From assembly GCA_003640385.1 (NCBI GenBank), contig RCAB01000127.1:62001-126000 (forward strand): a DNA stretch of 64,000 nt, in the 5' to 3' direction. Positions 591 to 62,634 of this stretch are shown one piece after another. The DNA comes from Setaria digitata. Its lineage: Eukaryota; Nematoda; Chromadorea; Rhabditida; Setariidae. The notes beneath the pieces were generated by a model. It worked only from the letters and a program-made list of their open reading frames with translations. It made no database searches and was not told the origin of the DNA. Numbering within the stretch: the stretch's first letter is position 1; every line of letters begins with the position of its first letter. Made by a program: the position numbers and the translations under genes.

Positions 591-3500
591 ACAGTCGAAC
601 TATGAACGTCAGAAGAGAACTTGGAAAATACGAGAAATCTTGAAATTTCCAACAAACTTAATTTTTAAATAATGACAAACTAACGTGCTTGCTTGATTGA
701 CAGTGAATGCAGATGCGGAGCCCTCAAGTGCCGGCTTCCTCATGCTATTCATATGAATTGAATCGGCTTCATATGCAGTTGAATCGGAAAAACGAGTATG
801 TCTTACAGGTGGGAAAGGAAACTTTGTGCCTCGTAATTTGCCTGAATGATGGGAAAAATTTACACGAAATAACATTACATAATAACACCATTCTAACAGA
901 TTGGTCTACTACTTCGCCTGTTGATATAACTTTTCCCTTGAATACAACGGAATTGACCGACACTGAAATAAGCTGTAGCAAAATAAGTGGAATAATTCTA
1001 TCAAACATTTTACCTTTTTCAACCGAGACTGCTTGCGCGTTCTCAACATTTACATACTGTGGATTCAGTAAGCCACTGTTGCGAATAACATTTTCTCTGT
1101 TGTTCTTTTCGCCAATAATTTCGACTTTCTTCCCAACTTCTGAATAACTGCACGGCTCATTACTTAATCGACGTTTCTTGTAGGACATCGGAGAGTCACC
1201 CCTCTCATTGGCATCTAAATCCAACAGTGCTGATACTGCTCCAGCTGACCATAAAGGTGAACCGATCGCACTATCTATTGATACTGTCGCCGTACTGTTT
1301 GAACTACGCTCATTTAAAAGCCTAAAAAGGATCAGTCTACAAATCTCGACATAAGGTTACTCGTAGAAATTATGAAACCGCAGCTGAAGATTTGAAAGCA
1401 TAAGTTCTCGATCAAAATCGAATTTTCCAGAAGTCTCACAGGATTTTAGAAATAAAATATGATAATTGAGAAACTTTTCACACAAAACCTACGACGCATC
1501 TGCTGGTGGAAGCGCAGGACATCTTCTAATAAACGCGTGATGCACACCTGGTCGGCTTTGCTCCTCGTACAATATAGCTTTTTCACCGGGCAATAAAGGA
1601 TGCGAATCATTCTCAAATTCAGGATCTGAATCGGGGTCGACTACGGGCTGAAGTTAATATCAAGTTAACTTCGAAGTACAGCAACGATATGGATGAATCC
1701 TGATAGAATGAAAAAGGATTCAAGGGCAGAAAAATTGACGGGATCATTGTTGAAATATTCACAGCAACTAATTCCGATTAACTGTATGGTTTGGCATGGG
1801 TTTCGCAGCATTTGTGGTACCAGTCGTCAAATCGTTTTGGCACGTTTACTCTTTTAGCTTCTTCAAACTATGTCGTCTTCGGTTCTGGTAGCAAAAATTC
1901 TGTTCTGCTTTCTTATCAGTCAAAACCACGCCTCATCACTTTACATCGCACAAGGGATTTAGAAGAAATTTGATGCGAAAAATGAAGACTTAATAAGAAA
2001 GATATAATTAACTAAAGTGTAGGAAAGAGTTAGAACTTCCCTGGTACAAAGGTGAAATTTAATTGAAGAAAAAACACAAATTTTTGGAATTTACTTCACT
2101 GGGACTTATAACAGGCTCCGACAGCGGTCGTGCTTTTCTGTGTTTTGATGGACTCTCCATGGAACGTAACGGAGGGGGTGGCGGTGGTGCGATATCTCTG
2201 ACTTCCTCACTTCCATCGCTAGCTGTCGATTGCACTTCCAGATAGTTCTGTAATAAATGCATAAGATGCATCTTGAATTTAAATGAAGAAAAAAACTTTA
2301 AAAGGTTCAGGTACCTCGTGATCACGAGCTGACTGAGTAAGCATCCAATCAAAATAATCAACCAGAGTGTCAAAACTTGGACGATTTTCCGGTTTTTCCT
2401 AAAATATTCAATTCAACCGTAGCACTGGGTAAATTAAGCAAGCCGTAATAATAATATATCATAAATGTGGTCATGAATGACAAATACCTGCCAACATGCA
2501 ACCATAACATCATAAACTTCTTCAGGACAATTATCCGGTGCTTCCATTCGATATCCCTCTTTAAGACATGAATATAACTGCTGCATTGCAATCGATGGAT
2601 AAGGAGTGCCACCAAGAGTCATTATTTCCCAAAGCAATATTCCAAATGACCAACTGGAAAACGAAGGATAGCTATCACTATTTGCTTCTTAACTGAATCA
2701 AAATTTTTTGCTTGGCACTGATAAAGCAGTTATAAAGAAAGCTGTAAAAAAGACGATACACATCACTGTAGATTGTGTATACATGGGAATCTAATGCTTC
2801 TAATGCCATCCATTTAATTGGTAATCGGCCATTTCCTTTCTTCCGATAATAATCATTGTAATGAACATCTCGAGAAAGACCGAAGTCTGAGATTTTCATT
2901 ACAAAACCATCCGCAACTAGGACATTTCGTGCAGCCAAATCACGGTGAATTATCTACAATGGATTCTGATTTCTTCATATAAGAAATATCCGTTTTTCCA
3001 AATTTAAAAAATATTTCCTTTTTCAAATTATTTAATAAATTGAAGGCAGATTTCTAGAAAAATAATGAAACCTTTCGACTAGCCATAAATTCCATTCCTT
3101 TGGCCACTTGCCATGCAAATTGTACAAGATGTCGTTGAGTCAAATGCTTGATAAGAACTGGTTGATCATGTGTTGATACAACAGTCAATTTTCTTTGTAA
3201 TCTTCGTGGCTCTAAGTAATGGTCACTGCTACTACCAGCACCAGCAGCAACATTTGTAGTTTCCGGAACTTGCGAACCGCTATCTGCATCCCGAGGACGA
3301 TGAGCTCTTAGAAAATCCCTGAATTGTAATATAGTGGCTGAAAAAAGTAGACCAACGCAAATGAAAAGACCAGTAATTAATTCTAAATGACTTGTACAAT
3401 TGTGTAAAAAAATAATTCACCTCAGATTTCCATGTTTGCATAGCTCCACAATAACATACAAAGGACCAGTACCAGTGCAGCATCCAATTAGTCGAAGCAA

Positions 3501-6500
3501 ATTTTCATGATGACCAATTATTTTAAATGTTTCCATTTCGCTAACCAAATCAATCAGTTCTTTTTCATGCGCCGATGCTTTCAATTTTTTGACAGCGACC
3601 TACAATTTAAGGCGTTTCAAAGCATGCGATAAACTTCGTCTCAACAGGAACCCAGGTAGCTCAATAAAAATTTAGAATTCTAAAGCATTATGAACAGTTA
3701 CCTCTTCTTCACGCATATCTCCTTGACTTGCTCGTGTCATTGGCATCCTCAGTATTGCTTTCCAAACTTCTCCAAATGCTCCTTCCCCTAACATCTCCAC
3801 AAAGTGCAACCTTAAAAGTATCTCTAAGAGCAAGATTTGAAGTTTAGGTAAAAAAAATTTGAAGTTTAAAAAGCTTTTTGTGGAATATCTGTAAATTATG
3901 ACCTGGATCTTTCGACTTCCCAAGCAGGATCAGGTGGAATTTCATAATCTGACAAAAAGGTTAAATCGCTCGAAAGTCGTCGTCTTCTAGTTCCAGATGT
4001 TGCTACTGGTTCTACATGAATTTGATAAGTAGATGGCATATCAGACCAACCATCGTTTTCTGGATCAACTGGCCGTTTTGTAACAATGACCTCAAAAATC
4101 CTTATCCTTCCTACTTAATTTTTTACGGAAGATAAAGCAGTCAGTTGAAAAGAATCTAAACTAATTCATTTAGTAACCTACTAGCATAGAAGTTTTCGGC
4201 GGAGCAAAATAAAAGGGAAGGACTTTTTAAAAAGGATGAGAAGAGAGAAATTACCCGTTTTTTAACTGGACCAATAAATTGTTCCATTTCAGCTATTTGT
4301 GCTTTTGAGCGTTTTCGAATGCAAAATATGTAAAATAGAGTGGTAGCCAAGGTGAGAATGAGTAAAATAAGAAGAATTACGACTGCTACGATAGATGCAC
4401 GAGACCATTTCGTATCAGGATTTCCTGTTGCAAGTGTCATTGCATGGAATTCGTTTACTGTTAAAGTTGCATTTGCTATCGCCTTAAATCGATTTCAATT
4501 TATTCAGAGATATTTGACTCATGTTTAAATTAAATCGTTTTTCTCGTCAATATTTTTTTCAAAGACGAAGTGAGAACCTGCTCAAAGGAAATTACTGATA
4601 GCGAAAATCTTACATGACCAAGATGATTGCCTGATACACATGCATACATTCCTTGATCGGCCACTGTTACATTTGCTATTGTTAGTGTTGATGAATCTTG
4701 TGATGTTTTCGTGACAATTGCATTCTGAAGAACAGCAAAACATTTGAAGTAAATTTCAAAAGGAGAGAAGTGAGAGGGGGACGAGGTCAAGGAGCAAGAA
4801 AGGAAGTGAAATTAAATTAAGACTGCAATATGAGATATGGCCTCTCCCAAATCTTAGTGTAATAGTAAATTTATGGGGAAAAAAATATAAACACGGCTTT
4901 AAACTTCGCAAAATATCAATGAACAACCTCAACCGACTGCATGTCAGTGTATCGGAAAACATATTTACGATCCGTTTCATTCCAGTAGTAAATGGAATCA
5001 TTGGTCATTTCTATGCGCATCCATACGATATGTGGTGTCAGATCTGATATCACCTGAAGCCAAAAAATTTCTCGAAACACACAACTTTAGGATCAGAAAT
5101 GATTTCATATGCACAGTTCTTCATTTTTTTCATTCCATTTGATTTTTTCTGCTAAGATTTCTTATTTTCATCTCGAAAGATCTACAGAAAGAAAAGGAAG
5201 CAAAGGCTTTTCTCACCTTGCAAGTGAAATTAACGGTACTGTTAACATCAACGGTTTGATTTACGAGAATATTTGGAACAATAATCGGTTTTGAACGCAT
5301 CCGATCAACAACTCTCAATTTGAAAGTTCGAGTAACCGAACCAGCCGAATTGAAAGCCTGTATTAACAAGAATTAATTCGGTGCTCGTATGGAGAAAGCC
5401 ACTTTTTCTAGGAGCTCATTTCAGAGTCTGGGAGCTTTTAAACTATTTTAGAAATATTTTGAATGGTAATGCTTTGATAAATGAATTTGATAGCGTTTTG
5501 GAAATTATGTTTTGTCTGGTAAAAAGAATCTAACAGGTGCGTTATTTTAGTAATTGTTCTTTTTTATATTACCCGCCAAATAAAACAGCGAAAAATTTAT
5601 TCCCCCCTTCCTGCTTTCTCATCAAGCACTATATAAAACGATACTGAACTTGCAGCAGGAAACTTTTCTATAGTGAAGTTTTTGATATATTTCATTATTT
5701 AAAGAGCAGATGATTCACCTCACAAGTATAGTCACCGGAATCTGATTCTGCAACATCTTCTATCTCCAGTGTATTCTTTCGCAGGCGGAACTCAGTCCCT
5801 ACTGGTCTGCGAACTTCCGTAGTAATTACCTTTTTGTTATTATTGAACCATATAACCTAAATTATGAATTTATCTTATTTTCTCTTTTAAAAGCATAACA
5901 TCAGAACAATATTGAAACATTTGAAAATTTTATATAATGACAGTGAAATTGAATTACTTGTGGCTCCGGTTGTCCTCCGGCTTTGCACTGTAGTTTAATA
6001 GTTCTTCCAGAAGGTGTTATCACTGATGTATCTGCATCTTCATCACGCACTTTGAAGTATGGTGGCACTAAAATCTTTGTATATTCGTGAATTATAATTA
6101 AACTGAATATACAGAAATGCCATTTTCTTTAACTTTTAAAAAAAGGTATTAGCAAATGAGCATTTTATGAAACAAGATGAGACCCGGCAGTAATCGAAGT
6201 AATTAAGTAAAAGACCTTTGATACTAATACTAAAATTGAACTACAGTAGCGGCGGTGAAACAACAATATTAGCAAAATGGCTGCGCCAGATTGTTATTAC
6301 AGAAACTATTTGGAAAAGCAGCTCCGGAAGAAAAAAGTGTTGACTGATTGGATATAATGCCTTGGCCGATGTCTAGTACAGCATCAATGAAGGAAAAATT
6401 CAAGAGAGAAAAACCTTTCTGGAGCGGGAAAACACGTCGGATGGTAGAGCGTGGTGTCACCGGATTCGTTACATGGAAGAAAACGGCTCTTGTTGCAGAA

Positions 6501-9243
6501 GCAGTTGTAGTTACAACAGAAACATGGATCCTTTTTGGCGCAATATCGGAAAGACGCACTTCGTCAGAATTATCCGCGCGTGGCTGATCGTGCATTAACA
6601 GGTCCAGTGGTGATTTTTCTGAGATTTTTTCGTCGATTTCATTGGAGTAGCTTTCATTGTTGTTCATTAAATTATTGATGCCCTTATTTTCTGGATCAGC
6701 ATTTTCCATATCATTAGTTGTGATACTTGCACTGATGTCTGTGATTTCTTGCTGAAGAAGTGTTCGTGCCCGAAGACGTTTCTCGGCAGCATCTAAAGTA
6801 CTCCAATCACTCAATGCTGGTTTAATGGCGGCAATTTTTTGCCGTGTTAACAGATTCGATAACAAATGACTCACGTCCACCCAGTCATTTGCCACCAGCC
6901 AGTCGAGTAATTTTACCGGATCTGAAAAGTTCGATAAAAAATGAATAATTTTTAAGTGGTACCTGAAGAAGCATGCTTACCGGATAAAAGAGCTGTTGCC
7001 TGCAAGCCACTGAGATGCTGTTGCTGCTGATGATCATGCAATATATCATTGGGCACCGCATCATGCAATCCAACTCCTTGCAAAACTTCATGCGGATCCG
7101 TTCCGATCAACTCATTCCCGCAAGCACCATTCTCACATATCTTCTTCCCTAATGGTTTCCGAACTTTGGATGCATATTTTTTGAACGCTTCACAGCGCTC
7201 ATCATTAACTTCAGTCCAGTTGATGCCATCCTTTCGATACTCGCCTGTGAGGTACCATAAGCAAATGCACTTTTCCGGAACGTGTTGAGCCGGAAACTCA
7301 TGCATGAAGAAATAATCACAGAAATCTGCAAGAATATCAAACGTGCCACAGCACCCATCAAACTCATGCAAGAAGAACGAAGAAAATACGATATTACGGA
7401 TTTATTAGTAGTTGTCTTTCTCAAACTTCAGAAACTTTAGATAAAACTCTACTCCAAGTTTTGCATGCGTTTAAGCAAATGCTTCCAGACCACTAACATG
7501 CAGTTTCAGAAATCTACGCAATTCACTTTACTATTCCAAGAAAATGTTGTTCCAGAAGAATTAAAAAAAAAAAAAAAATTGATGAGACGGTAGGATTTCC
7601 CTAGATGTGATTTAAAGCATTCCCTTTTCTTCTTCGTCTTGAAGTATACATTAAATGTCAAAGGAAATCTCCTTAGCGAAAAAGTTATTTCATGCAGTTT
7701 ACTAATGTATCAGTCAGTTTGCTTTATATGAATTGTTAGAAATGCTGTACACGCCTGTGCGTATGAACACTGATTTCGAAGCTTACCAATAATTTCTAGA
7801 GTAAAATTACGGAATATAGAGCCGGCTTGATTCCACACTTTGCATGCCCAAGAGCCCTGGAAATATCAAATCTGCTTACAAAGATTATAGATACTGTGAT
7901 CGGAATAAAACGATAATACAGTTGAAATTTAACCTGATCGCTGACTTCCACTCTCCTTATTTCCAAGGAGAAATGTTTCTTATTTTCCCGCAGACGTTCA
8001 TTATTGGCATAAGTTGTGTGATCCAAAAATTCTCCATTTCTGAACCAATGAATCTGAAAATCGGAAATAACAATTTAAGCAGCAAGAAATATATCACTTC
8101 ACTGACAGAAATAAATACCTCCTTTAAAATGAATAATCGTTTTAGTTACCAGACTGTTCAATCCTCCAGAATCAGAAACAAAACTAGAGTATTCGAACGG
8201 ATGATAAACTCATCTTCCATTCGAATTTTGTACAGATAATGAGTGATAAATACCTTTGGTGCCGGTCTCGCTAATGCAGTGCACTTGAATATTGCCTTGT
8301 CATTTAAAAAGACTTCATGGACAACTCTCTGGTTTTGCTTGAACCGAGGTGGACCAGCTATAAAAACATGTAGGTGATGAAGAAGGACTAAGATGGTGAA
8401 ATCGACTTTTTCACTTCATTATATCCAAACTTTTGTTTCAAAATGAGTTCCTTCATTATCATTGATAGAATCTACTATTAGAAGTGCTAGTGGAAACAAA
8501 ATCTTACGGAAAGATAGCACTATCAGTTTTGTTCCAGTGATTATTAACCCGAAGTGCTAATTATTTCAAAGTTTAGCTCGCTATCTTAACTTTCATCATT
8601 GAAGTATCATGAAGAGATATGATTACTGATTACGAATTAAAGTAGAATGTGACATGAGAGAAGAAACCGGTTATGTTCTATTTTCATCGCTCTCATTTAT
8701 GATTCTTCCTGTAATCTAAAACAGTTGCGAACTTATTTCAAATACTAATTCCTTCCGATTTCACTTATGAGTTGACTGAAATACAATGTTAAGATTGACA
8801 AAAGTATGAAATGATGGATATCATATGAGAAAACAGGAATTAATCTGATCTCTCATTGAACCAAGGTGGAACGGGATGAGCTGATTGACAAACTGCGGAA
8901 CAAAAAGTGGGTTAATAAATAATGCTGAAGTGTTCAGTCATCGGGTTCAATCATTTAACAATAAGTACAAGTCTGAAATAACAAGGAAGAGCAACATATT
9001 TTTCCTTAAAGACACCAAGGGACCTTTTAGTCATGATATCATAAATACTTTTTGAGAAATGATGTGTCACACAATACAGTACTCTCTATAATATCTTGTT
9101 CCTCTAAGCCTAAAAGAGTAGACAATGAACTTACTTTGAAGCCAGGGTCGTAATCCTTTGCCATTCTCATGAGTAGGCATAATAGCATTCACATGTGCTA
9201 ACAATACCGTAATCAGAAAGACATATATTACTGCAGTACTCAT
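129..9243 (-). CDS. egl-15: Fibroblast growth factor receptor, EGL-15 type
   Basis: Receptor tyrosine kinase that binds FGF outside the cell and signals through Ras and MAP kinase. Model (minus strand, first to last exon): 9135-9243, 8254-8357, 7934-8053, 7787-7856, 6981-7325, 6415-6921, 5958-6067, 5719-5856, 5217-5357, 4928-5053, 4614-4724, 4255-4482, 3903-4090, 3702-3810, 3421-3599, 3072-3318, 2760-2953, 2488-2653, 2315-2398, 2095-2247, 1493-1647, 1058-1321, 129-399; about 1372 residues. Visible parts: signal peptide at the start, Ig1 (WACKVW), a roughly 285-residue insert, Ig2 (SGDYTCE), Ig3 (MYACVSG), one membrane helix near 656-682 followed by RKRSK, then a split kinase with GEGAFG, VAVKK (Lys806), HRDLAARN (Asp949) and DFG (Asp967). 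The kinase insert is long and the tail has a proline run and a Q5 run. Fragments before and after Ig1 match the family; the donor at 6415 and the tail donors are the least certain. Confidence 0.93.
8859..8893 (-). pseudogene. Relic copy of an Ig1 exon start inside egl-15 intron 1
   Basis: A good acceptor (TTCCGCAG) is followed by about 30 bases whose end repeats the beginning of the true second exon: the plus-strand string ttgaacc-R-aggtgga occurs both here and at 8339-8353 with one difference, giving VPPWFN against GPPRFK. After this the frame meets TAA, and the only donor nearby has a phase that does not fit the next exon. It therefore looks like a decayed duplicate rather than a usable alternative exon. 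Confidence 0.35.
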
Positions 9244-16372: not shown

Positions 16373-19300
16373 TTAACCAATAGCTCCTTTGTGAGCTAAA
16401 AATTCCAATAAAGTTTCAATTTCCATGTTGATATTGGCAGTGGCACGACCTATTCGTTGTGCGATTTCATTTGTTTCGCCATCATCAAATGATCGACCAC
16501 AAAACGATGCCACCATCGCTTGCGCATGTGCATCATCACTTAAATTAATGAATTATGTGAGTGAGACACGGCTAATTATTATCTCTTCCTTCCTTTTCTT
16601 TTCCTTACTGCCCTCTCTACTGCCAGATATTTCCCTCATTTCAATCAAAAATAACACATTTGCAAGAGTTCATTCACTTTCTAATGTTAAAATGAAACCT
16701 GGCAACAGACATATTACTCCCATTTTTATTCTTATCCGAATGCCTTAATAAAAGCTTGTCCCGTAATTCGAGCATATCAATGAAGCTACGACGCTTGCTT
16801 GGCGTTGAACGAATTTTATGCGGTGTTGCTGTCAGGTCCAGCTAAAATTGGAAAGAAAAAATAAAATAAAAAAGTAAAAAATGAAAATAAGCAAAAAATT
16901 GCCAAAAATATACTGTAATGGACATCGAAATTTTCGAGTGCTTCCGGAAATCATTAGCAATAAGGCAGATTTGTGATCTGTCAGGAAATTGAAAATATTT
17001 TTAAAGTACACCTTTATCGGCACATTCCAAGATACCTTAATCTATAAAGCGATGACTTATACCTGTTTCAATGCATCATTTAATTCGCCACACTTTACTC
17101 GGATCTCAGAATAATGAAGAATGGTATTTTTAACGATTTCATGTATTTCAGCTACCCAAAACTTCATCGATAAGCCTAGAGCACGCCTACATTCGTTGAT
17201 AAATGATTGAGATTGTGCAACTGCTTTATCAAGATTGTGACTGTTCCATAACTGAATGTAGACAATAATGTATTTCGGAACAATGTTTTAGCCATTTGTA
17301 GTGCTGTTAACTACTATTGATCATGAAATCGTGAAGAATTCTGTTACAGATTTCCGTTTACTTTGACAATGTTGAATGATTTCTGAATAAATTAACAAAT
17401 GAAAGAATTAAGTGAAAATTTGTAACCTGCAGATATTCTCCTTTATGATCAGCGTGAGGGGTCCAGTCCATTACCGCAGACCAGTCTTTGAGCAATAATG
17501 GTTCTACCTAAACAAATCATCTTGTAATTTTAAATAACCAGCAAAAAAAAAAAAAAAAAAAACAATTCTTGAGATACTGTGTTGAACAAATTTATTTCAT
17601 ATGAAAATAGTTATGCATCAAAAATTTTCAATTCTCATGAAGTTCATTGAAATCCAAATACAATCAGTTTTGACAGGTGGCAGCAAGCTGAAGCTGATAA
17701 AATCCAAACTGAAAAAGAATTCAGTGAAAATGCAAAACATACCTTTATACCAGCTTGTAGCATACAAAGTATGCCCTGTTTGGTATACAGGTCACCGCGG
17801 TTCAAATGTGGATATAAGAATTTGACAGTCATTTTAACATCTACTTTACTAAGTTCCTTGCGGATTTTAGACAACAATAGACCAAGCAATTTTGCACAAG
17901 CTTTATTACTTTTACATTCATCCACCACTTCACATTTTGGATCACAATCCTGGTGAAAACATGGACTTTTGGAAACATATATCACTGCTTCGAACAGATC
18001 TACCTGCAACTTTTGTGTTTCATAAATCCTATCTTCTTCATGTATAAAGGATTTAGATCATTATCAGAAAGTAATAAAATCATTCAGTCTTTTTAAAAGG
18101 AAATAAGAAGCTTAATCAATTTCAAGGGAAAAAATGACATACCTTATACTTGGAAATGAGATCATAAATGGCAGCTACCAGCTGCTCTTCAACGTGAAGT
18201 TCAGTTCGGCTTTCGTGGTAAAAGTCACCCCGATAGATGTAATTTTCACCTATTAACGTAAGAATTAATCCACTGCTCTCATTCTTGTGCTCCAGAAAGC
18301 AACTCTGTACATGTTTTGGGACATGAAATTTTGATGGCCCATTTGTACAATCACCATTGCATTTACACCTGAAATATAAGTCTACACTTACAACGCCTCT
18401 CTGCGTTTCAGTTTAACTTGAGCTGATTCAATTCGGTAATAATAAGCACCTGTCACTACAGAACTCATACATTGTTCGACATGGACATTCTTTCTTCACG
18501 CATTGCTTTTTGCCTTTAGTACACTGGCAACCCTTCGTTGACTTTGCACTCTGGAATATGCTCGGATTAGATACGGTGCGGAAACATTTAGCAAAATTAT
18601 CTGTGGTTATCATTACTTTGTAATGTCACTGACTCCATCCAGAGCAGAAAAAGCTAATGATTTAAATATTATAAGCTGATTAGGACGTTAACTACTATGA
18701 ATTCTGCTGCTTTCACAGAGAATTCCATTCCAGATTTAAAACATTTATTTGGAAAACATGAAAAAGTACAAAATAGTAAGGAATGCTTTCGAAGACTCTT
18801 ATAATTGTTCTCTTCCCCTCCACAGATCCTAACTACCATTATCTATCCAAAGTTAATTTGTACCCATACTTTGAGCACTTTTTTCAGTGGTTCCTTATTT
18901 TTGCACATCTGCTTGCAGACACAAAGTTTACTACAAGGTTCCTTGATCCGCAAGCAATCACACCGTTCTGATTTTGAACACGCATTTTTTGCTGGTTTTG
19001 CTGGATCATTCTCACATGAACATTTGCATATCGCTTGATTGAGGCAGTCACCGCGATATCTATAGTTTGATTAATTAAAGTGTAGTTAGATAAATGTCTT
19101 CGAACTTATGTTCTACTTGGAGCATAATTATCGCGACAATTATATTGGGTTTCTAACATTATTCAATTGCATTAAATAAGGAAGTATTAACTCTGAATAC
19201 TACAATACAATACTGTTATATTACTGCATGTTAGTCTCTCCACAAAGCTTTCATAAATTTCTGCTCTCAAAAGCAAGCGACATTGTCTAACTCGTACAAA

Positions 19301-20061
19301 AGGAGTCTCAAACGGCGACGTTGGGTGTCAAATGCTTCCACTCTAATTCATTCAATTTCCTTCATTAGCCGCAATCTTGATCTTGGATTGAAATTTAATT
19401 GCTTTATGCACTTTATGAGTAATATTTAAATCGTCTGAATCACTTCAACGCCATAGTTATACACACGCTCGTACGATTCTAATGATCAGAATCAAAAGAC
19501 TTAGAGGACCTGCTGTATTTAGCCATATATAAATTTCTTGTGTAAGGGGTCGTTAAGTCACAAGCTCATTAAGCCGATGATAATGCAGAACTGAAGATCA
19601 AATTTATGTAAGACCAGATTCTAGGTCACACTAACTGGACAAGAGACAGTCCTGGTTCTTATTAAAAAATTAGATGATGCTACTATGTCTGTGTTTTTTT
19701 CTCTTGATAAATTATAAATGTATTCTTCTACGGTACTCACAGGCTCCACAAAAAAAAACTTCAAAGTTTGCGATTACTGGCAGCTGTACTCACTCAGCCC
19801 CACACAGATTCACCTCAACCTGCAGACTTGACTAAACTGACTAAACTTGCACAGCGCCTTCTTTCCAGCTCGTGCAACACTGAACAATTGAAAAACAGAA
19901 ATGAATGACTGAAGTGGAAAGTGTTGGTAATACCTTGCTGATTCGCAATGCTCATCGCACATACGTCGCGCACCGTAACATGGACAGGAATCGGATGAAC
20001 ACCGGTTCTGTGCCGTAGGACACTCACAACAGAATTGAGACGAAGCGCCCGGTTTGCTCAT
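16373..20061 (-). CDS. CXC-repeat protein with AID/APOBEC-like cytidine deaminase domain
   Basis: Predicted zinc-dependent nucleic-acid cytidine deaminase joined to cysteine-rich DNA-binding-type repeats. Exons (minus): 19934-20061, 18870-19059, 18450-18550, 18143-18368, 17743-18003, 17427-17507, 17063-17251, 16699-16841, 16373-16538; 494 residues. Residues 1-150 carry three CXC-like clusters (for example CQCTKGKKQC, then CPC, then CKC). Residues 173-329 read as a deaminase: two strands, then His198-Val-Glu200 (H-x-E), 28 residues, then Pro229-Cys230-x4-Cys235 inside VSKSPCFHQDC, which resembles the SPC motif of AID/APOBEC. After this come a helix, a strand with MTVKFLYPHL, and LQAGIKV followed by KDWSAVMDW, the order seen in APOBECs. 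Residues 330-494 are a mostly helical extension I cannot place. The start lies two bases after TTTCAG, a likely trans-splice site. Zn ligands are seen; the substrate and the mutagenic or editing role are inference. Confidence 0.85.
19814..19879 (-). other. Possible in-frame cassette exon of the CXC-deaminase gene
   Basis: Within the 874-base first intron there is a 66-base stretch with a good acceptor (CAATTGTTCAG) and donor (GAG followed by GTGAATC). Both ends are phase 2, so including it adds 22 residues (VARAGKKALCK and onward, basic with two cysteines) between the first and second CXC clusters without changing the frame. Skipping it also gives a clean join (CESA to RYRGD), which I chose for the main model because it keeps CXC spacing typical. 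Confidence 0.4.
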
Positions 20062-41318: not shown

Positions 41319-44300
41319 TTACAATTGATCCGTCCAGCTGCATGTAGTAAAAAGCGGGAAATTAGTAGCAACATTTGGTTTCGGAGAATTCGGTGTCTGA
41401 ACCGGCAGTAAAAAATCATGGTCATAGTAGCTCCTATACATCTGCGGTTCTGACACAGAACGTTTCAATCTCGGAAGACCAGCTGAGGCTCGCTCAAGAT
41501 AAATAAGAACCTAGAAAAAGTCAATCTGATAGAACAAAATTTCTAAACAACCAGTGGTTAACGCAAAATTAAAAATAATGTGTCAACCTGTTCAAATTCC
41601 GGACGCTCGTCTCGAGAGAACTTAATGCATTTTTCAAGCAGAGTAAGCAAGCCCTTGGGTGTATCGTGGCGCACTTTCGTCAAATCGGGCTTCAAATAAC
41701 CTCTACCAACCATGAACAAAATCTGAATTTTACGAATAGAAACAAATCTCAAATTGCGATGTTCACAAGTAATAATGTCATCAAACACACAGACCTGATC
41801 CCTACTGTTGATATGAGAATAAGGTAGAATTCCTGATAATAATTCAAATAAACAAATGCCAAATGAATATACATCAGAAAGCGTTGTGTATGGATTTGTA
41901 TCTTGCATTCTTATCACTTCCGGAGCCTAAATATTTTTATATCTCGTCAAAACATTACATGGAACACCGAAGGTGAAGCTAAATGAAGCTAAAGCACATT
42001 ATAAAAATAATAAGGAAATCATACCATCCAAAGAATACTTCCAGTTGGCTGCTGATTTTGTTGTCCACCACTCCAACGTGTTTTGACAGTCGCCAAGCCA
42101 AAATCACCAATTTTAACTGTACCATCATCAGTTAAAAAAATATTGTTCGTTTTTAGATCTCTGAAATCTCAGAAAAAAAGTCACAATGTTTCAAAAGCAT
42201 CAATGTTAGAATTACTGATGGAAATTATAGACGAGCAAATAAAACAAAGGGGAGAACCATGCTGAGCTAAGAGAAAGATTTTGAACTGAAACTTTTCTAC
42301 AATCATATATCAAAACTGCTGAAAGCAGAGAAAAGAAGTGGTCATTATGAAAATTCCTACATTATTGCCTTGTACTTAAGTAGCTGTTCATGCAGTTCAA
42401 ATACGTGCAACGGAAAATTTTGACGGAAATGATTTAAGACAACTGATCTTGCACAATTAAGCCATATTCTGGTCACTAAGCCGTAAGCCAAATGCTAAAT
42501 TTCGAAATAAGTATAAATGATTACCTTTCTTTTTTACAGATATGAATAATAGGAGATATCATTAAAACAACAAATAAAAAGAACATAGATTGGTGGAAAC
42601 CTATGGATGATGTGACGGGAGTGCAGATAATTCATGCCCTGAGCGATCTGTTTGCAAATATCAATAACTGACGAGATTTCAAAGTCTACTCGAGGTTCAT
42701 TGACATGTATTTGTCTATACAAAGAAGATCCTTCACACCACTGAAAATATCACTGCTCATGAAGAGGAAATAGAAAGGAAAAAATAGCATTAAAAAATAG
42801 AACAAAAATGTTAAAACTAAAATCTAGCAGGAAAATGATAACTAGGACTCAATGATTACCTGTGTAACAATTGCAAGGTCTGGTTCACGCAACCAACCCA
42901 TAAAAAGTAAAACATTTGCATGTCTGGTTTTCTTCAGTACACCCACTTCGTTTTTAAAAGCTTGAAGCTGTGCAGGACTTGGTTCACCCACATTTAATTT
43001 TTTAATTGCCACTTTCCCTGAAAATATTTTTACTCAGTGGGAATTACATTTTATTATTTAGAAGTTAGAAATTTTAAGTCTTTTACCGCAATCACTAGAA
43101 ACAACCCATCTAATGGATTAGTCAACTGTGAAATAAATAAATCACAAAGATTAAACATCGATGTAAAGTGCTTAAATCAATATACTTACCAAAATAACTT
43201 CCCAAATACACAGTACCAAACGAACCACTACCAATCTTCTTATGATATGTTACCAAAGAACGATCAATTTCCCAACCTTCCATCAAAATCCGCTGCTTTA
43301 ATTTCTCTTTGTAATCACTCTAAACTTGAAACTAGTAAAATTACAGTTTCAGTGATTTCAACTTATTAGTTAAATTGTAATGGAACTGAAAAAACTGCTT
43401 AAACTTACTTCGTGAGGCTCGCCTAATCGATCCGAAGAGATAGACGATCGACCGCCCGGTCCTTTAATTGGAATCTTGTCATTTGGACCTGAATCAAAAC
43501 AATCTACAATGAAGAATGAAAGAGAACAACGAAAAAATTACTAGCCACAACTTAAATGAGCCTAATTTGAATAGAACCAGAAGCAAATGAACAACTGTTT
43601 AATTCATACTTTTGCTACGGAAGCGAAAACCAAATGTCTTTTGTGGCGGTGCGGATTGTGGAGGTGTAGGAGGCAAACCCGAACTCGGGTCATATGTGGC
43701 ACCAGAATAAGCTGGTGGAGGCGAAGAACTTGTTGACGATGGAGAAGTGGTGAAACACGGTGACCCCATTCCAGCCAGAGCTGATGGATGCAAACGATTT
43801 GGCCGCCGATTACCAGCCAATTGCCAGTCTCGAAAAGCGGAAAAATTTGTCAGCTTTCCCGTCTTTGCTGCTCCTGTATAAACAAAGACAGTATAACTCA
43901 ACAAAGCCATTAAGTAGCAGCAACACTTGATTTTGGTCCCAGTAATAATGACTTTTCGAAGTCAAGGGCAAATCATTTCAAAAACATCACATTTATTTTA
44001 GTAATAAATCAATCTCTGATTAGAAATTACTGCTAGAAAATATACCTGATGGGTGAACAAATACATGAACATTGCTACTCAGTGCATCCAACACTTTCTG
44101 AAAATTTATGTGTGTATTACAAAGCATGTTTTTGAAATTCTAACTTCAAGGAAAATCATATGTATTCTACACAACATTGAGGAAAACCGTTTCACGCAAT
44201 GTTTCATCTTTTGTTATTTCGTAAATGTTCGGAGCTGATGATGAACGATCTCGAGATGACTCATTTATCCCAACTGAGATTTCCGGTCGACCTGGTAAAC

Positions 44301-45990
44301 GCACGGCCTGTTGACGCGAAATTCCCACACGATTAGGAAGAGAATCTACAAACTTCTATTCATTTAAAAGCAGGAACAGGTCATACCATGATTTTGCATT
44401 TTTTTTTCTCCGAATTTTTTTTTTTTTTTTTTTTTTTTTGATACATCAATAATGTTATTTAGAGCTCGAAATATTCAGCAGCCTAGAATTTATGGCTATT
44501 TAAAAGCCAATTTTAAAGGAACTTTTAATAAATGTGGAAGGTAAACATGAAGTTGCCAAAACATGTTTACTAATTAATGGAAAAATAAAAGCAACAAAAA
44601 GTGGGTTACCTGTAGCGGGACTTTGGAAATGTTGGATAATCTCGGCAACAAGTGCAGCATTTGGACCTTCATACTGATCGCATATATCTCGCAATTTGTT
44701 TGCCATGCGGACATCATGTGAAATTTGTTGCATGCGATCGCAATAATTAGGGACTTTGGAACCACATTTTTGATGAAATGTGAACTGGCACAACTCGCAC
44801 CGATATCCCTAAATGCAATGTTGGAAACCGGAATTCGAACACAGCTGTGAAGTTCCTACACCTGAATTGAGAAACTCCTGGTAGTGCAGAAATAGCACTG
44901 CTTTATTTGTTCAATGGATAGGCAGCAGGAAAAGGAAAGTACGCTTCATATATAGTACATTTCTGTGATGGTTTTACTGGAAACCAAACAGTAAGCAAAA
45001 GTACCGAGCAAAAATATCATTCTACATCTCAACATGGTGCATAGAAAACAATGTGAAAGTTTGCTTTTCAAATCACAACAATTTTCACAATCGCTAGAAG
45101 AAGAGATTTAAAACATCTCAAAAAAAAAAATTAAAAGTCGAAAAATATTATTCAGAAAACTGACCTGCAGCCATATTTGTTTATGACAGACGTCACAGAA
45201 TGCTACTGACAAGAAAGTTTTCCGCACAAAACTGTGCTTAATAGATACCAATATAGAGAGATATGCACTGTGCACCCAAAGCTCCTTTTTTTCCAAAGTC
45301 TAAAATGTATCAAAAACGTAAATAAAACGTTGACAAAACAAAAAAATTTTTGAAATTAATCATAAGGAAGCTTAAAACATGAATACAATGAATAATGGAA
45401 TTTCGAGAAAACTAATGAATAATATGTAGACCACTTTACATTAGATAATGTTTCTAAATCCATGCTAAGATCGATACGCGGACTAGACGGATCACCACCA
45501 ATACACACTCTACACATCTGCGGCAGTATTGCTCTTTTTTCCAAAATTTTGGCAATGGCGTCTCGTGCTAGAATCCCGGGCTTCACCTCCACCTGTAAAA
45601 TAAGAATAGTGTAAATGAATACCTATACCTGCAAACAGAAAAACCGAAATAGATTCATATAAAGGATACTACAAACTTTTGAATGTTGATTGAAAGGAAG
45701 ATGAAGAAGGATTAAGGAGTCGCTTAGCCGTTTGGGCGAAGTACATGGTGAAGGGCTGCCACCACCTCGGCTACTGTAGACATCCTGTAAAAGGATCAAC
45801 ATTTTCATTAAAAGAATGGCAGGCATTAGAACGAGAATTTCTGGAACTAGCTTTTTTTTTTTTTTAATGGAAATGGAATGACCTGACGTAAAATCTCGCT
45901 TACCGGTGATGATGGACCAATAAGAGGTGACAAAGACTGTGATACCTGACATCCAGAACACCCTTCCGCAACGTCGCCCAACACAGACAT
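41319..45990 (-). CDS. lin-45: Raf serine/threonine kinase
   Basis: MAP kinase kinase kinase that binds Ras-GTP and phosphorylates MEK. Exons (minus): 45904-45990, 45677-45784, 45440-45592, 45165-45299, 44610-44808, 44188-44345, 44046-44097, 43610-43873, 43409-43488, 43190-43319, 42860-43017, 42601-42740, 42025-42160, 41795-41926, 41588-41722, 41319-41510; 752 residues against about 813 in C. elegans. Ras-binding domain at roughly 52-127 ([18 protein letters not shown]). C1 zinc finger 138-184 with its His and Cys pattern complete. CR2 14-3-3 site RDRSSSAPN (Ser264 region). A Pro/Ser hinge with [10 protein letters not shown]. Kinase from 436: GSGSFG, VAIKK (Lys461), HRDLKTNN (Asp556), DFGLATVK (Asp574), SILWMAPE. 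Second 14-3-3 site RSVSEP at 706-711. The start is the first in-frame ATG after TTTTAG at 46005-46006; an extra 5' exon is possible. Confidence 0.95.
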
Positions 45991-53646: not shown

Positions 53647-56961
<3,315 letters not shown>

Positions 56962-59900: not shown

Positions 59901-62634
59901 AGCGCAATATTTTAGGGTTCAGTATCTTGATTTTCCACATTTCTGCAGAGTAATTTTATGAGTTTACAGTTTTCTCGGTGTTGTGAAATTATTCCAGTGG
60001 GAAGTGACAGAAAGATGTTTTTTTTTTTTTTTTTTTTGAAAATTTCTGGTTTTTTTCGTTCTTGAGTTTTTCTTTTCAGTTAATCATTACGATGATTGTT
60101 CACTTCTTCGTGAATTACTTGGGACATTAGGGGTAATAAACATGTAAAAAGTATTCATAATTTTTTCGGAGGAGGAGAATTAATTATTCAAGTATGGATG
60201 GTCATGTTAAGTAGCAGAGAGCAGGTAAACTCAATTGTTGTTACCTGCGGCACTACTACTTAGAATGACACATCCTCGGAACTGTTTTTAGGATGGTTAA
60301 TCTAGTACTTGAAACGGAGACTGTCACTTTTTAAAAGTAACTATTGAATGACTGTGAAACTATAAACTGGAAAATTGCATTTTCTAAAATTATACTATAC
60401 TTGGCTTATTTGCAGAAAGACATATAAAATGGGATGCTACATTAGTCTGTGTATATAATCGAAAAAAAAAAGTCGCAAGTTAATTAAAATCGCTGAGAGT
60501 GAAATAGCAGAGGCTTTTAAAAAATATATGTATATACAAATAAATAAATTCACTTGACAAATGGAGCATGCAAAAGGAAATGACTTCTAAGACATAAAGT
60601 CATTAACCATAATCAAGTTAACAGAATGGTAGCTTTCCATGCAATCCATGAAATGATAGGTCCTTTTCGGGATAAAATCCGAATAGTGTTGACTGGTTGA
60701 GAGATTCACTGTGAATTGAACTGACTGACTTAGCTGCTGTTATGAACTGTAGCTCAAAATTAATGGGAGGATCAAAATCAAAAAATTTTATGCTGGGGAA
60801 TGCGAAAAGGGACGGAAACTTACGTGCTTTGATTGAGAAACTTAAAAAAGAGAAAAACAGAAATTAGCTGGGACAATACGGATGTGACTAGATAGATAGA
60901 TACAGGTGGCTCACTGACTATCAGGATGACAATTGTGTGTCGTCTTGCAAAAACATTTCGGTATTGTGTGAACAACTGCACCCATTTCGTAATGACTTCT
61001 AAAAATTTTCATCTATTCTCTTTCATTCTATTCCGTCCTTAACTCTAATGCTTCATTACCATTCAATCGTATATGTCTGTTATCAAGAAAAAAAAAAAAA
61101 ATCAAAACAAGCGAAACAGGCTATTCAGCAAAATTTACTATCCCTCCAGTACTTGTGTGCAAAAAAAAGTTCCGAGTTTTCAGGAGATATCCATTTCGAT
61201 AATGATGCAACTAGTTCCTAAACGAACTGCATAAAAAAGGAATCTATTTATATGCTCGGCAATAAATTTGCAGAACTGAGGTAGTATGTTCATTCTCTAG
61301 ATAGTTCTACAAATGGCAAAAGCCTGTTAATTTCCTGCCGTAATTTGGCTCTTTTAGGTCATCAGAATAAAGACAGATGTGTATATAAGAAATGTTTTGG
61401 ACTTGAAATTGAGTACTTATTTCCACTGTAGCTTAAATTGATTCTTAGAGAAATGAAACTAAGACAATCACAGATGACGGTCAAAACGAATATAACATCC
61501 TATGCTGAAAGTTTGGCAAGAGTGGTGTTTCACTTCCAGACGGAGAGACATTTATTCGGCTTTTTTCACTTCGTTCCGAATTTCACCGTGTGATAAGGAA
61601 TCTCAGTTTCATGATATTTCAGAGCAGGAGAAGGAGTGAGTGCTGCTACTGATAAAAGCATCTGCTGAAATGGGAAACAAGAAAGGATGGATGAGTGAGC
61701 ACGCTGCTCTATTATCAACAAAAAGTTCGGCACTTTCCGTTCATTGGTAGCAAAATACCGTTGTATCATTGAGAGAGGGAAGAACGGAGACGGACGATAG
61801 GTCCTGCATAGAATAACGATTTCTTGCTGTCATTTGTTTGTACAGCCGCTTATGAGGCATTCAATTTTTAGCCACTGCAATGGTCATGCTTTCCCTTTCC
61901 GTATGGATTTTTCGAAATAGACATCGGAATTAAATTATAAAATATATGTATTTATTCATTAATTTTCTGAAGAAATTTTCCGATTAACAATTCACTACGT
62001 TTAAAAGTCTTTTGAAGCCAACGCATGCCTGTTACGGCCATCCGAAATGTGCTGTGTATCCCTCTTAGTAATTAGTGGTTTAATATAGGAGCCATTTAAA
62101 TTTAAAACAGTCGTTCTATACTTTTCTTTGGTTATTCATATACCTGAGGAATATTCGGGCAGTGAATAATCGCTTTTTGATCATGTCTAAATAATATGAC
62201 TTTTTTCCTTCTAACATAATTTTCATCTGGAAGCATTTCACAGACGAACACAAAAATCTGCGTGATTAACATATTTAATGAATAACTTCATATCAATATA
62301 ACTTGAATTATATTTAATTGTACCTTTGAAATTCTAATATTTAATGACTTGTATAATGATTGTGGGAAAGTCTCTAAAATGATTCTACATCCTAGTAGTC
62401 AAAATGCAAGACAAAAATTTGCTTTCCACCATAAACACCTAGACGTTCCGGCAATAATGTCTCACTGTAATGTCTAAGAAGAAAATTAACTGTTATCGAG
62501 GAATAAATTAATTAAATGAAATGCATAAACGGAAGTAGCAAATGACCAAAAAACTGAACGTGTTTCATCATTATATTGCAAAATTCGAATGACTGTACTA
62601 ATGAAGATGCTGGATTATGTAATCGGAAAAACGT
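56989..62634. other. Gene-poor 5.6-kb spacer right of pnk-1
   Basis: Contains short open frames (for example 57732-57983 minus and 58058-58264 plus) without family resemblance or paired splice sites, a T21 run near 60017-60037 and other homopolymers. It should hold the pnk-1 promoter at its left end. A let-7-like seed string at 61277-61289 has no hairpin. No RNA gene or transposon was recognised. Confidence 0.5.

Follow-up and report, generated by a model that had tools for sequence, protein, structure and literature searches.

Analysis of the window, that is, the whole stretch of 64,000 nucleotides examined within contig C32 of the Setaria digitata assembly (75.6 Mb and 976 contigs searched), revealed a spliced minus-strand gene whose single open reading frame joins three CXC-like cysteine clusters to a domain that matches the AID/APOBEC profile and carries a full zinc motif. 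We assign a probability of roughly 0.55 to the reading that its product is an AID/APOBEC-like, zinc-dependent polynucleotide cytidine deaminase, tethered without strong sequence choice by the CXC array, and these odds rest on the score against the Pfam family PF08210 (APOBEC_N). Under this reading, the three N-terminal CXC-type metal clusters would keep the enzyme attached to nucleic acid or to chromatin, H198, C230 and C235 would bind the catalytic zinc, and E200 would shuttle protons in C-to-U deamination of cytosine in single strands of either DNA or RNA. We further infer a site of action inside the cell, intracellular or nuclear, from the absence of a hydrophobic N-terminus, and suppose that the protein works against foreign or mobile nucleic acid.

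The spliced gene model consists of nine exons, all on the minus strand, and encodes a protein of 494 residues in one open frame, with the start ATG at 20061 and the stop codon ending at 16373 (window coordinates); the interval 16373..20061 assigned to this gene in the sequence-only reading was thus borne out. All eight introns are bounded by GT...AG, the longest being 874 bases, every exon join is in phase, and the G+C content ranges from 0.36 to 0.53 in exons versus 0.27 to 0.37 in introns. Exon 1 (19934..20061, residues 1-43) contains the start codon and the first CXC-type repeat, whose pattern starts at residue 12, exon 2 (18870..19059, residues 44-106, with AG/GT flanks) contains the second repeat, starting at residue 56, and exon 3 (18450..18550, residues 107-140) harbors the bulk of the third, starting at residue 114. 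Exon 4 (18143..18368) completes the third repeat with C141, C143 and C147 and opens the deaminase with H198-V-E200, exon 5 (17743..18003) encodes S228-P229-C230-x4-C235, a cysteine insert (C239, C245 and C251) and the deaminase core, and exon 6 (17427..17507), lying within the PF08210 match at residues 159-344, encodes the KDWSAVMDW segment. Exon 7 (17063..17251) runs from residue 330, completes the deaminase match (at residue 344) and opens a C-terminal tail, which continues through exon 8 (16699..16841, with AG/GT flanks) and exon 9 (16373..16538), the latter ending with the stop codon. This tail of about 140 residues, which the sequence-only reading had not described, matched no Pfam family above cut-off (best hits Vta1, E 0.034, and Spectrin_Dys-1, E 0.082), and a search of NCBIfam gave no match. 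Two bases upstream of the ATG, the sequence TTTCAG could serve as a trans-splice acceptor. No exact copy of the SL1 spliced leader was found in the genome assembly, a copy with one mismatch lacked a splice donor after it when inspected by eye, and no spliced-leader gene was found. None of the signals AATAAA, ATTAAA or AATGAA occurs in the 372 bases 3' of the stop codon.

The physical fusion of both parts is visible within single exons. Exon 4 carries in one uninterrupted frame both C141, C143 and C147 of the third repeat and the pair H198/E200. The CXC-deaminase junction thus lies within a single exon and the fusion is independent of any splice join, placing the CXC repeats and the deaminase in the same gene as had been proposed; exon 7 likewise bridges, on its own, the close of the deaminase match and the first part of the tail. 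The possibility that exons of two adjacent genes were mis-joined, and that the fusion is not real, might draw on the length of the introns and on the missing canonical poly(A) signal in the 372 bases after the stop; against it stand the in-phase GT-AG joins throughout and exons 4 and 7, each of which spans a junction and thereby makes a two-gene artefact unlikely. We therefore regard a mis-joined model as very improbable.

The Pfam profile search placed residues 159-344 in PF08210 with 85.4 bits (cut-off 25, E 6e-24; score obtained with a protein version 11 residues shorter near the C-terminus, outside the match), covering profile positions 4-167 of 170. The isolated domain scored 88.3 bits (E 7.9e-25) against the same family and failed to hit PF00383, the general deaminase family, at E values up to 10, in agreement with the AID/APOBEC-like affinity put forward from the sequence. 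Exon 5 alone still reached 39.2 bits (E 9.4e-10), with 84 residues aligned on 61 profile positions, while exon 4 alone, and exons 6 and 7 alone, matched no Pfam family. One reversed and one shuffled copy of the domain gave no APOBEC match, the reversed copy producing a single unrelated match below cut-off (RH_dom, E 0.0012).

The zinc motif is complete, reading HVE-x28-PC-x4-C (H198-V-E200, 28 residues, P229-C230-x4-C235) and preceded by S228 in an SPC context, with LQAGIKV at residue 297 and KDWSAVMDW at residue 309; the residues of the motif lie at the positions that had been claimed, and the two segments follow in the claimed order. The pattern HxE-x23-30-PCx2-4C, composed after inspection of the sequence, arose in 14 of 20,000 shuffles of residues 151-345. 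The W of SWSPC (W98) has a role in the base pocket, and in its place the protein has SKSPC, with K opposite the W of both APOBEC3G halves in alignments that score no better than chance and take SPC as their anchor. The base pocket may thus be different, with activity possibly changed or abolished. The family motif is given in the consulted part of PMC5956068 as H[AVS]E-x(24-36)-PCxxC, of which H[AVS]E-x(24-36)-PC is present as HVE-x28-PC at 198-230, and C235 sits at a PC-x4-C spacing, within the x2-4 range of the sequence-only reading and beyond the strict PCxxC of that source. After the zinc cysteine C235 follow C239, C245 and C251, an insert that had gone unnoticed earlier and could possibly form a second metal site.

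In pairwise comparison with solved APOBECs the domain remained at noise level, with APOBEC3G the best (E 1) of three chance matches, the KDWSAVMDW segment of exon 6 aligned with APOBEC3G at a chance-level score, and the whole protein had no match among solved structures at E values up to 0.1. A profile score so much higher than the pairwise score suggests that relatives of this protein may already be within the Pfam model. The domain also yielded sub-cut-off matches to APOBEC2 (21.1 bits), NAD1 (20.2 bits), SNAD4 (18.5 bits) and SNAD3; these were discarded as support, since another deaminase locus of the genome, L004, scored about equally or higher on three of the four (NAD1 25.1, SNAD4 22.7 and APOBEC2 21.0 bits). 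Inv-AAD, which by its Pfam name we take to denote invertebrate AID/APOBEC deaminases, was not among the families matched by the domain. The SNAD families are, presumably from their name, secreted, and no secretion signal was seen here in a hydropathy scan; the SNAD3 and SNAD4 profiles stay below cut-off. The first 60 residues contain no hydrophobic stretch, the highest 15-residue Kyte-Doolittle mean being -0.09 (a hydropathy scan rather than a signal-peptide program), so that action inside the cell is to be expected.

AlphaFold models of single exons were of low confidence. Exon 4, predicted from the single sequence (mean pLDDT 56.0, pTM 0.47), was modelled as strands followed by a helix just past the start of the HxE region, and exon 5 (mean pLDDT 44.8, pTM 0.35) as strands, a long helix and more strands. 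Both models are compatible with a deaminase, at a confidence too low to bear on the fold, on zinc geometry or on the helix and strand named in the sequence-only reading.

The N-terminal part, with 28 cysteines in residues 1-150, is CXC-like in its spacing and divergent in its residues. The three cysteine clusters described from the sequence were recovered at positions 12, 56 and 114, all conforming to the spacing C-x-C...C...C-x-C-x6-C-x2-3-C in a pattern that permits 3-12 residues in the first gap, of which repeat 2 needs 11. At least three pattern starts were obtained in 14 of 20,000 shuffles of residues 1-150 that preserved cysteine content, this pattern too having been composed after inspection. 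Support from the Pfam family PF03638 (TCR, cut-off 23.5) is weaker: the whole protein scored 16.4 bits, residues 1-150 scored 17.2, repeat 3 alone (exon 3 plus the start of exon 4) reached 23.3 (E 8.2e-5), repeat 1 alone stayed far under cut-off at 10.9, and repeat 2 alone had no match; in none of the three Pfam scans did any match to PF03638 exceed the cut-off. The CXC match disappeared when the N-terminus was reversed or shuffled (one copy of each), and when the CXC part was compared with solved structures, the three matches returned were at chance level (E 0.62 to 2.2) and included no CXC protein.

The sequence-only reading had further proposed that these repeats guide the enzyme to particular sequences, and this proposal found no support and is weakened. 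According to the consulted part of PMC4974476, a tyrosine from each of the two CXC repeats of LIN54 enters the minor groove, mutation of either one abolishes binding to the DNA site, and in the CXC domain of MSL2 an arginine lies in the minor groove. The position before the second C-x-C is occupied here by S25 (SCPC), R75 (RCDC) and E127 (ECPC), and thus by no tyrosine in any of the three repeats, whereas the LIN-54-like gene of the same genome keeps Y directly before the second C-x-C in both of its repeats. The LIN54 crystal sequence 5fd3 also has Y at this position in both repeats, 74 residues apart, the same distance as between Tyr536 and Tyr610. R75 of repeat 2 might conceivably act, by analogy, like the MSL2 arginine. 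The repeats are therefore CXC-like, fail two LIN54 features (the Pfam cut-off and the tyrosine), and may bind DNA. Of the DNA-targeted deaminase originally envisaged, the AID/APOBEC-like domain, the CXC repeats and the nematode host stand, and the sequence guidance is not supported.

The genome bears out a nematode host; the spliced leader was dropped as evidence of it, and the identity rests on 46 matches in the assembly to the cuticle-collagen N-terminal domain, a family that we take to be a nematode marker. Eight open reading frame pieces neighbouring the gene in the window included two protein kinase matches, one C1, one Fumble and four without Pfam match, and a mir-252 precursor lies at 60199-60271; such ordinary animal genes as neighbours argue against contamination. 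A bacterial or phage origin was considered and is not favoured, given nine exons and no phage match. A tblastn search of the domain against phages found no match, the Wolbachia-type surface antigen PF01617 had no match, and a pattern derived from exon 5 hit 44 and 6 stretches in genome and viral contig collections, respectively, none of which was confirmed by tblastn.

The genome profile search gave two PF08210 matches, this gene and L004. The latter shows the reverse of the window domain, with 78.6 bits against PF00383 and 25.2 against PF08210 (cut-off 25), has no CXC repeats in its frame and reads as a Tad2/ADAT2-type (tRNA-type) deaminase. ADAR-type deaminase exons matching PF02137 were found on contigs C295 and C17. 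In a whole-protein search of the genome, nine of ten matches fell at the locus itself and the tenth had E 0.475, and no second locus of CXC-deaminase type was found. A uracil-DNA glycosylase gene whose product could act on dU lies at L018: one of its exons resembles uracil-DNA glycosylases of solved structure (best E 9.7e-16), and the locus contains GQDPYH and HPSPL, presumably the motifs of this enzyme. It was found only at a looser profile limit (one match, E 2.3), and the four pieces of it scanned against Pfam reached at best E 0.14. Since the per-exon search missed the glycosylase at the stricter limit, the claim that the CXC-deaminase gene is single-copy is weakened and holds as far as copies were found.

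The altered base pocket makes a binding-only protein the strongest rival of the deaminase reading. In this case the AID/APOBEC-like fold would bind nucleic acid, the CXC repeats would add to the binding, and the protein would be a regulator and not an editor; APOBEC2 has been proposed as such a catalytically silent member. The K in place of the W of SWSPC, in a chance-level alignment anchored by SPC, and the divergence of the CXC repeats would both fit a silent protein; the zinc ligands and the catalytic glutamate, however, are all retained, and in the absence of selection one would expect them to erode by drift. On balance we hold a silent protein to be somewhat unlikely. A possibly changed base pocket could also point to an editor of RNA, in which the CXC repeats and the metal site of the cysteine insert would bind RNA and C-to-U changes would be made in cellular or foreign transcripts. 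Members of the AID/APOBEC family act on both DNA and RNA (PMC5956068, consulted part), and the repeats show no sign of LIN54-type DNA reading, but the CXC domains with described structures, LIN54 and MSL2, bind DNA (PMC4974476, consulted part), and we consider editing of RNA instead of DNA unlikely.

Doubtful to a still greater degree is an addressed form of the deaminase, in which the CXC array would combine with the cysteine insert into a recognition surface for particular chromatin or mobile-element DNA, cytosine would be converted to uracil for the uracil-DNA glycosylase, and the outcome would be mutagenic defence or regulation. If true, it would place such a system in an animal that has no immunity of the vertebrate kind. 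Should the protein be an active deaminase tethered without strong sequence choice, as we prefer, a nematode would possess a mutator of the AID/APOBEC type equipped with its own module for nucleic acid binding, and since loss-of-function genetics is easy in C. elegans, the long-standing question of what such enzymes did beyond vertebrate immunity would become directly testable; should it be silent, it would be a useful case of the deaminase fold reused for binding.

Nematode AID/APOBEC-like proteins and metal-binding inserts were reportedly described by Krishnan and colleagues in 2018. Putative nucleic acid deaminases of C. elegans had been identified earlier (Iyer 2011, as cited in the consulted part of PMC5956068) and have extremely low similarity to vertebrate AID, which tempers the description of this gene as a notable system in a worm. 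The same part of PMC5956068 reports sea urchin relatives examined in an E. coli mutator assay, where the mutations of SpAIDL1 were consistent with cytosine deamination. The consulted parts of PMC3482391 and PMC12656827 make no mention of nematode AID/APOBEC proteins, and no description of a CXC-deaminase fusion appeared among the papers listed in a literature search to whose scope Iyer 2011 and Krishnan 2018 did not belong, a result that makes no claim of absence from print.

Compared with known systems, the window protein resembles the AID/APOBEC family (PF08210, including vertebrate AID/APOBEC and sea urchin AIDL) in its coverage of nearly the whole profile and in its HVE...PC...C zinc motif, and differs from it in the SKSPC context, the PC-x4-C spacing and the exon 5 insert with three extra cysteines, as well as in the long N-terminal CXC array and the C-terminal tail. 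With LIN54, tesmin and TSO1 it shares the cysteine spacing of the repeats, and it departs from them in the residue before the second C-x-C, in a different domain partner and in scores below the Pfam cut-off. L004 and the ADAR-type exons belong to the same deaminase superfamily; unlike the window protein, the former is best matched by PF00383 and has no CXC repeats, and the latter match PF02137. With the putative C. elegans nucleic acid deaminases of Iyer et al. (2011), as cited in PMC5956068, the window protein shares both its nematode origin and its enzyme group. The gene is thus a further nematode member of the known AID/APOBEC-like group, and its interest is in the joined CXC form and in the target of that form.

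The cysteine-bearing insert of the CXC-deaminase protein (window 17896-17946, minus strand, aa 235-251) carries C239, C245 and C251 immediately after the second zinc cysteine of the deaminase and possibly provides an extra metal site in this domain. The C-terminal tail (window 16373-17176, minus strand, aa about 355-494) is encoded by three exons and matched no Pfam family above cut-off in a profile scan; the three simple patterns used for basic clusters detected a single one, KRR at 408.

Elsewhere in the same genome assembly (G000), the tRNA-type deaminase L004 (C261:69017-69202) exceeds the PF08210 cut-off by 0.2 bits, and a bare pass at this threshold therefore does not define an AID/APOBEC protein. 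The uracil-DNA glycosylase gene L018 (C35, near 125229) was overlooked by the per-exon family search at its default limit; absences from such searches thus need caution.

The window also harbors, all on the minus strand, a mir-252 microRNA precursor (60199-60271; 66.7 bits versus a gathering score of 45), a pantothenate kinase-type ORF (54626-55012; Fumble, E 6.5e-20), and two further loci. In the first (2681-8074), receptor tyrosine kinase exons, including the ORF 2681-2953 (PF07714, E 3.1e-26), lie near Ig-like exons recognized by eye, and the gene looks FGFR-like. In the second (41561-44808), family matches identified a kinase ORF and a C1-domain ORF, the order of which, by eye, looks Raf-like.
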